Shown in pieces: positions 2,956-5,527 of a stretch of 64,000 bases of DNA. This DNA comes from Candidatus Palauibacter polyketidifaciens (GTDB lineage Bacteria > Gemmatimonadota > Gemmatimonadetes > Palauibacterales > Palauibacteraceae). Positions within the stretch are counted from its first letter, which is position 1. Every line of letters starts with the position of its first letter. The stretch covers positions 1 to 64,000 of the forward strand of contig NZ_CANPVO010000023.1 of assembly GCF_947581785.1 (NCBI RefSeq). Direction: 5' to 3'. The notes under the pieces were generated by a model. The model worked only from the letters and a program-made list of their open reading frames with translations, did no database searches and had not been told where the DNA came from. Position numbers and translations under genes: made by a program.

Positions 2956-4182
2956 ATGCCTGCACCTTCGAGCAAGGACTCCGTGAGGGTCGCGAGAACG
3001 TTGAAGTCCGGATTGACGCATGCCGATCCGGGCTCCGGTTTCGTCCTGGCCGCGCTGATCGGCCTTTGGGTTGCGGCGTGCGGAGGCGAATCGACAGCCC
3101 CTCCGCCCCCGCCTCCGCCCCCACCGCCGGCGCCGGTAGCGCCGGTCCAGGTAGGCACGATCCCCAATCAAGCGGTCGGGACCGGGCAGACCGCGACCCT
3201 CGACGTATCCTCCTACTTCCGCGATCCCGATGGCGGTGCGCTCACGTACACGGCCGCTTCATCGGCGGCAGCGGTAGTCTCGGTCTCGCTGTCCGGCAGC
3301 ACTCTGACGATCGTCGGGGTCGCTGAGGGAACCTCGACGGTGACGGTAACGGCCAGGGACCCGGGCGGGCTCACGGCCGCGCAGAGTTTCGAGGTGACGG
3401 TGGAGACGCCGAACCGGGCCCCCGAGCCCGTGGGGACGGTCCCAAGCCGGAACGTGGAAGCGGGACAGACGGAGACCCTCGATATCTCCCCCTACTTCAG
3501 TGATCCCGATGGAGATGCGCTGACCTACACGGCCGCTTCCTCGGCCGCCGCCATCCTCTCGGTCTCGATCTCGGGTAGTACCGTGACGATGGTGGGGGTG
3601 GCGGAGGGAACTTCGACGGTGACGGTAACGGCCAGGGACCCGGACGGGCTCACGGCCGAGCAGAGTCTCCAGGTGACGGTGGAGACGCCGAACCGGGCCC
3701 CGGAGCCCGTGGGGACGATCCCGGGCCAGACCGTGGAAGCGGGACAGACGGAAACCCTGGACGTCTCTCCCTACTTCCGCGACCCCGATGGAGATGCGCT
3801 CACCTACACGGCCGCTTCCTCGGCCGCCGCCATCCTCTCGGTCTCGATCTCGGGCAGCACCCTGACGATGGCGGGGGTCGCCGAAGGGAACGCGACGGTG
3901 ACGGTGACGGCCCGCGATCCGGGTGGCCTCACCGCCGAGCAGTCAGCCAGCGTGGCCGTCAGTTCCGAGTCCGACTTCGTACCGCTCAGTGTGCTGACGA
4001 TCACCCGCAGCGGAGGCATCAGATTCGGCGGCATCAGCGTTGGGACGGGCTGCTTTCAAGTCTCCGCCATAACCCTCAACGGCGTGACCTACACCGTTCA
4101 CTGGAGCGAGTGGCAGATCTTGAGTGGCTCGGACTGGAACCAGGTCTCCGGGACGCGCAGGGACGGTCGCGTCTGCGGCTAA
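2956..4182 (+). CDS. lipoprotein with three cadherin-like repeats, cut by in-frame TAA
   Basis: The start at 2956 has GAGG 6 bases upstream and gives an N-terminus with a hydrophobic stretch and lipobox LWVAAC, so the protein is a lipoprotein. A run of ten prolines follows the Cys as a spacer. Then come three nearly identical 93-residue units (QTxTLDxSxYFxDPDGxALTYTA, then EGTSTVTVTARDPGGLTA), typical of dystroglycan-type cadherin/Ig-like surface repeats with calcium-binding DPDG loops. A distinct C-terminal domain starts near residue 345 but is cut at TAA 4180-4182. The same frame stays open to 5016. An upstream ATG at 2752 exists but precedes no signal peptide. A longer ancestral protein of 686 residues is likely. 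Confidence 0.75.
   Translation: MPAPSSKDSVRVARTLKSGLTHADPGSGFVLAALIGLWVAACGGESTAPPPPPPPPPPAPVAPVQVGTIPNQAVGTGQTATLDVSSYFRDPDGGALTYTAASSAAAVVSVSLSGSTLTIVGVAEGTSTVTVTARDPGGLTAAQSFEVTVETPNRAPEPVGTVPSRNVEAGQTETLDISPYFSDPDGDALTYTAASSAAAILSVSISGSTVTMVGVAEGTSTVTVTARDPDGLTAEQSLQVTVETPNRAPEPVGTIPGQTVEAGQTETLDVSPYFRDPDGDALTYTAASSAAAILSVSISGSTLTMAGVAEGNATVTVTARDPGGLTAEQSASVAVSSESDFVPLSVLTITRSGGIRFGGISVGTGCFQVSAITLNGVTYTVHWSEWQILSGSDWNQVSGTRRDGRVCG
3151..3987 (+). repeat. three tandem 279-bp coding repeats
   Basis: Units begin at 3151, 3430 and 3709, each 279 bp (93 codons), and encode the cadherin-like repeats of the lipoprotein. Units two and three are nearly identical over long DNA stretches (for example around GAGACGCCGAACCGGGCCCC at 3401 and 3680), indicating recent duplication or gene conversion. 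Exact 279-bp spacing keeps the reading frame. Confidence 0.85.
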
Positions 4183-5016
4183 GACCTTGCTGCGGCGGCG
4201 CCGGGCGAGTACCGGCTCGCCGGGGAGATGTCCCTCAACGGAGTCCGCGGACGCTACAGGAGTTCGAACACGGTGACCGTCGGGGAAGGAGGAGGAGCGA
4301 GCTTCCGGGACGACTTCGACTCCAGCGCCAGCCTGGACGACTGGAGTGTCCAGCTGAACGCCGACGTTGAAGTGGCCGGCGGCTTGCTGCGCATTACCAA
4401 CAATCGGGACGGTTTCGTCGGGCTGGTCGGGCGAGACCTGGACGATCCTCTGACTTCCTGGACGCTAAGCGTGAGCATGGGTCGTGCCCAGCGGGACGGT
4501 CTCGCCGGAGTGTGGTGGGGCACGGGTATCCGGCGCTACCCACGGATGTCGTTCAACGTTGGACCGCTCGGCGAAACGAACTTCTCCACGTGGTTATGGG
4601 ACGATGACCAGGAAACCTGGCTTCGGTTGACGGATCTCAGCGGCCACTCCGACGCCATCAACGTGGGCCCCGATGAACTGACGGAGATCACCCTCGGCTG
4701 GGATGGCGAAGAAGTGTTCGTGCGTGCCGGGGACACGGATCTGCTCCGCGGTGAACCGGACGAAACGCTGGCCGCGATCATGGGGCACATTTTCTTCGTG
4801 ATCCTGACGATGGAGGGCGACGTGGGCCGGACGGCGTTGTTCGACTGGGTGGAAGTGACCGGCACCGTGGCCAGCGCCGACATGGCGGATGGCGCGCGAC
4901 CGGCTCTCCCGACCGAAGTCCGGCGCGTGGCCAGGGACCCGGCGGACTCGAACACGGCAACCGACCGCGGGTTGAGTCTTCGCACCGGGAAGCTCCGGCC
5001 CGGTAGGAACCGCTAG
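4183..5016 (+). pseudogene. C-terminal part of the same surface protein, downstream of the stop
   Basis: This stretch is in the same frame as the repeat lipoprotein and continues its sense directly: after the TAA the codons read DLAAAAPGEYRLAGEMSLNG. The domain from about 4300 (FRDDFDSSASLDDWSVQ, later LTSWTLSVSMGRAQRDGLAGVWWG) resembles a concanavalin/LamG-like jelly-roll that might bind carbohydrate. An internal ATG at 4228 could start a separate 262-residue protein, but it lacks any signal peptide and begins mid-domain. I therefore read it as the severed C-terminus. Readthrough or tRNA suppression is a less likely alternative. Confidence 0.65.
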
Positions 5017-5027
5017 CTCAGCCCAGG

Positions 5028-5155
5028 ACGTGGGCTTACGCCCTACTTCTAACGGAGGGGGTGGGATTGGCTTCCCCCCGCTCCGCGGGGCTCGCCGAGC
5101 TCGCTCACTTCGTTCGCTCGGTTCGAACCCACGTGGGCTTACGCCCTACTTCTAA
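5028..5155 (-). repeat. decayed tandem copies of the tRNA-Ser 3' half with a palindromic insert
   Basis: Downstream of tRNA-Ser a 48-bp unit made of its variable arm, T arm and 3' acceptor strand plus the trailer is duplicated. The segment 5028-5068 reappears exactly at 5131-5171. In the distal copy the T-loop is split after GGGATT by a 55-bp insert (5069-5123) rich in inverted repeats: CCCCGC TCC GCGGGG at 5076-5090, and CCGAGC/GCTCGG at 5095-5121. Removing the insert restores two exact head-to-tail copies. These copies lack the 5' half of a tRNA and cannot be functional. Confidence 0.8.
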
Positions 5156-5239
5156 CGGAGGGGGTGGGATTCGAACCCACGTGGGCTTACGCCCGCCGGT
5201 TTTCAAGACCGGTGCATTCAGCCGCTCTGCCACCCCTCC
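5156..5239 (-). tRNA. tRNA-Ser (TGA)
   Basis: The minus strand folds as a class II tRNA: acceptor GGAGGGG paired with CCCCTCC and discriminator G, a D arm containing GCAGAGCGGCTGAATGC, anticodon loop CTTGAAA with anticodon TGA between CCGGT and ACCGG, a long variable arm (GGGCGTAAGCCC) and T arm GTGGGTTCGAATCCCAC. It decodes UCA. The 3' CCA is not encoded. It is the last gene of a three-tRNA cluster. Confidence 0.95.
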
Positions 5240-5527
5240 GGACGACGCGGTCGCCCGCGCATCGAGGCACCGCGCCGACGGCAAGGTAATGCGCCCGGAG
5301 CCGCGATTCCATTAAGGTCGGGCGCTTCAGGTGTCGGGGGTGAGGGTGATCCGGTAGCGGACGACCCGACACTGCGGCGACCGGCACCTTCGGGCTTCGA
5401 ATTGAAGGATGGCCTCAGATCGGCGGGTCCCGACGGAATGCCGGCAACGGTCACGGGGACCTTCTCCGGTGCACGGGCCGAGGGAGAGGGGGGCCGCCGA
5501 TAGGCGGAGCCCGGCGACGGGCGAAGA

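Follow-up and report, generated by a model that had tools for sequence, protein, structure and literature searches.

Tandem repeats attached to a tRNA gene have been known since the 1970s at the tyrT locus of E. coli, as an oddity of one locus. These tyrT repeats (tpr) encode a protamine-like peptide. They also give rise to RtT (Rfam family RF00391), an RNA of about 171 nt that is processed and stable; Boesl and Kersten reportedly showed in 1991 that the RtT units are cut from the tRNA transcript as stable RNA. The E. coli units carry the annotation RttR/RtT small RNA, and 4680 of 5426 E. coli genomes contain the RtT unit, at 1 to 9 places each. In a comparison of two Salmonella Paratyphi A genomes, rtT RNA is listed among the VNTRs, with a length of 175 bp (PMC2658671). 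In E. coli K-12, the tyrT and tyrV units begin with an antisense T-arm, after which come AAGG TTCGA, the hairpin insert, ATCCTTCCCC and the tail.

In Candidatus Palauibacter, a sponge-symbiont bacterium, we describe units of the same construction. As at tyrT/tyrV, they stand in tandem directly behind a tRNA gene, end in the 3′ tail of that tRNA and vary in number between strains. Both kinds of unit contain the T-stem 5′ strand with TTCGA, a hairpin-rich insert, and the T-stem 3′ strand with the tail; the antisense T-arm that precedes the split T-arm at tyrT/tyrV is present in some Palauibacter units as well. The sequences of the inserts differ, however, being alike only in composition (of 300 shuffles, 54 and 166 were as good), so that common descent with E. 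coli is not shown. The examined Palauibacter units measure 86-167 nt as compared to 175-178 in E. coli and, unlike at tyrT/tyrV, several tRNAs per genome carry them. The RtT model of Rfam found no match in the window (the whole 64-kb stretch of DNA that was analysed) at the gathering cut-off, nor in seven related loci with E up to 1. In the literature searched, which comprised few subscription papers, no account of tRNA copies split in the T-loop was found.

Layout of the tRNA-Ser(TGA) locus

The genome that contains the window (G000) is a draft of 3.2 Mb, assembled into 52 contigs. The features of the locus are listed in Table 1. On the tRNA strand, the spacer is followed by the variable arm, T-stem strand and TTCGAA of the cognate copy, by the hairpin segment (5121-5067), by the tail and finally by the partial copy, which stops before completion of the T-stem. 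Units at other tRNA-Ser genes have starts similar to the spacer. The second hairpin consists of a 3-bp outer stem, a GA-rich internal loop and an inner stem closed by a C-GNA-G triloop.

Table 1. Features of the tRNA-Ser(TGA) locus in the order of the tRNA strand
Feature	Position	Strand	Evidence
tRNA-Ser(TGA), intact anchor gene	5155..5240	-	ARAGORN; Rfam RF00005 at 5156-5239
9-nt spacer TTAGAAGTA, start of satellite unit	5147..5155	-	sequence; recurs at 5044-5052
Cognate copy: variable arm, T-stem 5′ strand, TTCGAA of T-loop	5122..5146	-	25/25 identity to tRNA gene 5170-5194
Hairpin 1 of T-loop cassette (CCGAGC...GAGCTC)	5097..5121	-	fold, alignment, pair counts; rival pairing CCGAGC/GCTCGG
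Hairpin 2 of T-loop cassette	5069..5096	-	GNA loop in 18/18 distinct versions; covariation
Displaced T-loop end, T-stem 3′ strand, acceptor tail TCCCACCCCCTCCG, 14 nt	5053..5066	-	identity to tRNA gene tail
Second, partial unit: spacer and variable arm	5028..5052	-	identical to 5131-5155

Two exact direct repeats define the array, one of 41 nt (5028-5068 = 5131-5171, spacing 103) and one of 25 nt (5122-5146 = 5170-5194, spacing 48). They bear out a preliminary description of this DNA, according to which partial 3′ copies of tRNA-Ser(TGA) follow the gene and one of them is split in the T-loop by 55 nt. The unit length at this locus is 103 bp and, because 103 - 55 = 48, removal of the 55 nt does restore the 48-bp tandem period claimed there. 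The insert had been placed at 5069-5123, which is right as one of three equivalent placements; since AA stands at both ends, 5067-5121 and 5068-5122 fit equally well. It had also been called palindromic. The segment indeed forms hairpins, but the fold gives two adjacent ones instead of a single palindrome. Within the 64-kb window, the cassette core had no other match, and matches were obtained in 0 of 100 shuffles. Elsewhere in the window, a 279-bp tandem repeat of 2.7 copies (3183-3942) lies within an ORF with bacterial Ig-like domains.

Distribution in the genome and in the genus

With the insert as the query, four further clear sites were found in G000, all on contig C16 and adjoining the other three tRNA-Ser genes (CGA, GGA, GCT); tRNA-Ser(CGA) carries one complete unit and one truncated unit. 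At all four tRNA-Ser genes the cassette lies inside the cognate 3′ copy and its flanks match the adjoining tRNA gene. A downstream tail copy was present at 7 of the 46 tRNA genes of G000, namely the four Ser genes, Pro(CGG), Ile(GAT) and Arg(ACG). A shorter query gave tail copies at 6/46 tRNA genes as compared to 1/46 in the reversed-query control, and the tail copies of Ile(GAT) and Arg(ACG) score only 12, a level also reached by one reversed-query control. Judged by eye, Ile(GAT) has a clear cassette (CCGAGCGCC...GAGCTCGG) in the T-loop together with a compensating T-stem change, GTAG/CTAC in the satellite as compared to GTGG/CCAC in the tRNA itself. The Arg(ACG) case is based on a split T-arm and an antisense arm, and Pro(CGG) has a tail copy and a hairpin without a recognisable first hairpin. 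Overall, the arrangement appears less clearly at Ile, Pro and Arg than at the four tRNA-Ser genes.

An 80-nt unit query was then run against 40 genomes, including the one of the window, and matched in 13 of the 16 genus genomes and in none of the 24 outside the genus. Further copies, for which the preliminary description had proposed a search and on whose existence its account hung, are thus present near tRNA genes, both in the same genome and in most of the genus genomes searched. Units lie behind the TGA, CGA, GGA and GCT genes, often in tandem. Between G000 and G224, which belong to the same species, copy number differs at three of the four tRNA-Ser loci: G224 has 3 units against 1 at TGA, 2 against 1 at GGA and 3 against 2 at CGA. 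The counts rely on draft assemblies in which some arrays are interrupted by gaps (N runs in L064 and L118), and one of the three TGA units of G224 itself spans an assembly gap. The GCT locus is clean and empty in some species (L064, L068, L071, L085, and L082 by gene spacing), and in others holds exactly one unit. In another genome of the genus (G005), the cassette was found within the Ile and Met copies, in their own T-arm, and also in a Gly-like copy.

G018 and G023, which represent a second genus of the family, have a different insert before the cognate tail behind tRNA-Ser TGA and CGA (L127, L128, L144, L146). Only the reverse complement of this insert resembles the Palauibacter cassette (1/300 shuffles as good), in a comparison that was chosen after viewing the sequence. 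In a member of Gemmatimonadota from another family, with 100% completeness (G037), tail copies were found at 0 of the 35 distinct tRNA genes scanned; the feature is therefore not universal. In four genomes with 41, 24, 45 and 39 tRNA matches, the distinct tRNA genes scanned numbered 31, 25, 35 and 34, respectively, that is part of each genome's matches, some of them taken through ARAGORN beside the match or from earlier loci. Core matches outside the genus in G131, G218 and G219 look like chance and were discarded.

Two side observations concern the tRNA-Ser loci. A contig filed under another family (L119, G238:C111) contains the GGA-CGA tRNA locus of Palauibacter together with its flanks; a binning error has probably misplaced this contig. 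Besides, Rfam family sX4 (RF02223, 'Proteobacterial sRNA sX4') matches the tRNA-Ser(CGA) and tail region with 34.2 bits, below the cut-off (L064:960-1091, L032:2115-2277). Since the sX4 consensus line holds an apparent whole tRNA-Ser, the sX4 family may itself be a tRNA-Ser locus.

Units outside Gemmatimonadota

A Bacteroidales MAG (G306) has three tandem units behind tRNA-Arg(CCG), and tail copies at 6 of the 31 distinct tRNA genes examined (Gln, Ala, Arg-CCG, Arg-TCT, Gly, Met). By eye, the T-loop is split in the Arg-CCG, Arg-TCT and Ala copies and intact in the Gln copy, the Gly and Met copies being ambiguous. Both Arg inserts are similar to the Palauibacter cassette, with 0 and 1 of 300 dinucleotide shuffles as good, and the Gln, Gly and Ala inserts showed no resemblance to it in the shuffle comparison. 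A wide occurrence of the exact cassette in Bacteroidota was rejected, the pattern matching in 1 of 395 genomes, G306 itself. Behind tRNA-Gly(GCC) of G306, further copies of a 93-nt repeat keep the CAACAGGGTCCGTCGAGCC part without the full tRNA tail (L264:1699-2097).

A viral carrier was considered and rejected as well. Two scans of viral contigs gave 0 and 66 matches, and a scripted search found tail copies at none of the 66. Of these matches, 65 look like chance, and the remaining one (L249) reads as the E. coli tyrT repeat. Its presence in a contig of a viral collection suggests a provirus beside tyrT.

Fold of the cassette and the nature of the folded strand

The 55-nt segment alone folds slightly better than its shuffles (z -1.8 on the plus strand, -0.8 on the minus strand), and the whole 128-nt stretch clearly better (z -4.7, 0/200 shuffles). 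Parsing of 47 TTCGAACCGAGC sites gave 29 complete units, the 18 others (truncated, gapped or off-pattern) being left out of the counts. The 29 units comprise 24 distinct cassettes and 18 distinct second hairpins. All 18 versions of hairpin 2 carry a GNA loop, with each of the four bases at N (GGA 6, GCA 6, GTA 4, GAA 2). Its outer stem varies between GGC/GCC, GAC/GTC and GGG/CCC; a hybrid version has one G-G mismatch. In the alignment of the 24 cassettes, 89.7% of cells pair and six pairs are changed on both sides, MAFFT having misplaced the four shortest hairpin-2 versions, whose inner stems are thus partly scored as gaps or mismatches. The covariation score is 0.157 as compared to 0.051 in shuffles (0/500 reach 0.157) and to at most 0.032 in slid controls; as the tested structure was derived from the same, related sequences, this covariation is support and not proof. 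RNAalifold prefers a different pairing of hairpin 1, without a covarying pair. The T-stem of the satellite is not strictly kept, with GCGGG or ATGGG facing CCCAC in several units. Overall, the compensating stem changes and the invariable GNA loop indicate that the folded strand seems to be constrained.

Compensating changes of this kind would be expected if the units were transcribed with the tRNA and excised by tRNA-processing enzymes as a small RNA, whose fold and antisense arm would regulate the tRNA or its maturation. An arm complementary to the 3′ part of the unit's own tRNA, placed before the split T-arm, was indeed found in 8 of 20 units with 0 of 300 shuffles as good: Ser-GGA in two genomes, Arg-ACG, the Ile unit of G005, the two Arg units of G306, and E. 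coli tyrT and tyrV. The Met unit of G005 comes close (1/300 shuffles as good). In the G306 Arg-CCG and Arg-TCT units and in E. coli, the loop of the antisense arm reads GAGAA as compared to TCGAA in a true antisense. A simple scan detected no terminator between tRNA and satellite in the Palauibacter units and, with a spacer as short as 9 nt, these units are probably transcribed, which would suit a role as RNA. The small RNA annotation of the E. coli units points in the same direction.

Other observations are harder to reconcile with such an RNA. The antisense arm is weak or missing in about half of the units, namely the remaining ones examined. In three of six G306 units (Gln, Gly, Arg-CCG), the same kind of scan showed a terminator-like hairpin between the tRNA and the tail copy, so that the rest of the unit would stay largely untranscribed. 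No Rfam family except tRNA reaches its cut-off in the window. RNA hairpins generally favour loops other than GNA triloops. In contrast, GNA loops closed by G-C pairs form unusually stable DNA mini-hairpins (PMC4686876). From this analysis, a processed small RNA appears a rather doubtful explanation. Because of the GNA loops and of the terminator-like hairpins that precede G306 tail copies, we consider the folded single strand slightly more likely to be DNA than processed RNA.

Mobile and integrative elements

The preliminary description had proposed that a small non-autonomous palindromic element was inserted into a dispensable tRNA copy, and had pointed to REP-associated transposase genes. 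Of this, a repeated hairpin cassette is supported; a single insertion into one copy and a REP/RAYT origin are not. REP elements are likewise short imperfect palindromes repeated between genes, but they are scattered and accompanied by RAYT, whereas the Palauibacter cassette is tied to copies of the tRNA T-arm. The Y1_Tnp domain (PF01797) had no match in G000, for which a REP/RAYT origin was therefore rejected, and was present in 3 of the 17 genus genomes searched, with G005 the only cassette carrier among them.

More generally, the cassette could be a non-autonomous mobile palindrome inserting into T-loops, with insertions surviving only in spare 3′ copies. Its presence at the T-loops of Ser, Ile, Met and Gly-like copies, the similar inserts in two phyla and the empty GCT locus of several species are consistent with mobility. 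MITEs and palindrome-associated elements are likewise short, non-coding and hairpin-forming. Unlike MITEs, the Palauibacter cassette lacks terminal inverted repeats (0 inverted pairs of at least 12 nt in 4800-5400) and its flanks are cognate tRNA sequence. As for a target-site duplication, a copy of the tail stands on either side, but the tail belongs to the tRNA sequence as well, and the AA at the two cassette ends is too short. The absence of the Y1 transposase from 14 of 17 genus genomes argues against such an element, as does the placement of all strong insert matches in G000 at tRNA-Ser genes, with none away from tRNA genes and the remaining matches weak (E 1.7e-4 or worse). Chance insertion should also leave some spare 3′ copies without a cassette, yet in the genus contexts read none that reaches the T-loop lacks at least a cassette remnant. 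Finally, chance insertion does not account for the identical T-loop position of the cassette behind four tRNA-Ser genes and in the Ile and Met copies. A mobile palindrome is therefore unlikely.

Attachment-site scars of tRNA-integrating islands likewise consist of copies of the 3′ part of a tRNA behind its gene, and the units could have arisen as displaced attachment sites of islands, later amplified in tandem. A same stretch ending in GGCGGACAC directly precedes the tail bases of Ser satellites in G002, G006 and G008 (L070, L076, L077, L080). From its sequence, this shared boundary suggests that islands also use tRNA-Ser tails, as if one family acted at several isoacceptors. In G020, about 0.9 kb separates tRNA-Ser(CGA) from a tRNA-Ser 3′ copy behind it that is not interrupted. 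Unlike such scars, the Palauibacter core is split by a conserved 55-nt cassette, which should keep it from recombining as an attachment core, and stands in tandem units; no integrase or transposase domain was found in the seven neighbouring ORFs between 2.2 and 10.1 kb. A tyrosine-recombinase-like stretch noticed by eye in L138 had no Pfam match and was not relied on. As islands would also leave the same cassette at four loci unexplained, we regard this origin as very improbable.

Genus arrays end either at the tail or inside the cassette, the latter followed by unique DNA at a variable end point (CGA in G000, G001, G011 and G224; third unit of L169), as might be expected of a plain tandem duplication with its upstream break in the tRNA T-loop and the cassette a captured downstream flank that was never inserted; this is hardly credible either, since the T-stem 5′ strand with TTCGAA and the tail flank the cassette in 29/29 complete units (both being required by the parser) and different loci share one and the same cassette.

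A probable satellite anchored on tRNA genes

Units of one layout, each matching its own tRNA, occur at several tRNAs and in several genera, change in number as whole units within a species and carry compensating stems. The same layout is found in some Bacteroidales units and at E. coli tyrT/tyrV. What follows the tRNA-Ser(TGA) gene seems to be one case of a recurrent type of repeat attached to tRNA genes rather than the product of an isolated insertion.

On balance, we lean towards a tandem satellite anchored on the tRNA gene, which would grow and shrink by recombination between tail copies. Each unit would be a 3′ copy of the preceding tRNA, made of the spacer, sometimes an antisense arm, the T-stem 5′ strand with TTCGA, the cassette, and the T-stem 3′ strand with the tail. 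Units may multiply or vanish through recombination or slippage between the repeated tails, and the real tRNA gene would stay intact because every crossover in a tail rebuilds a tRNA. Exchange at the shared T-arm and tail sequence could spread the cassette among tRNA genes, after which it would adopt the stems of its new host tRNA. More tentatively, the cassette may be kept for its single-strand fold, as DNA whose hairpins are opened in replication or transcription rather than as processed RNA, and the satellite would be mainly a self-maintaining repeat, harmless to the tRNA.

It is possible, but we propose this with clear reserve, that these units belong to a class of tRNA-gene satellites that crosses phyla (Gemmatimonadota, Bacteroidota and E. 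coli tyrT), with a mobile cassette that takes up the T-arm of its host and often an antisense arm. If so, the repeat would take over its flanks from the target, always leaving a working tRNA.

The units are a source of length variation for tRNA genes, and the tRNA-like stretches that they contain could mislead tRNA annotation and the finding of islands. Should distant bacteria have this layout behind many of their tRNA genes, the E. coli oddity would become one case of a general process, the origin and role of which could then be tested by comparison.
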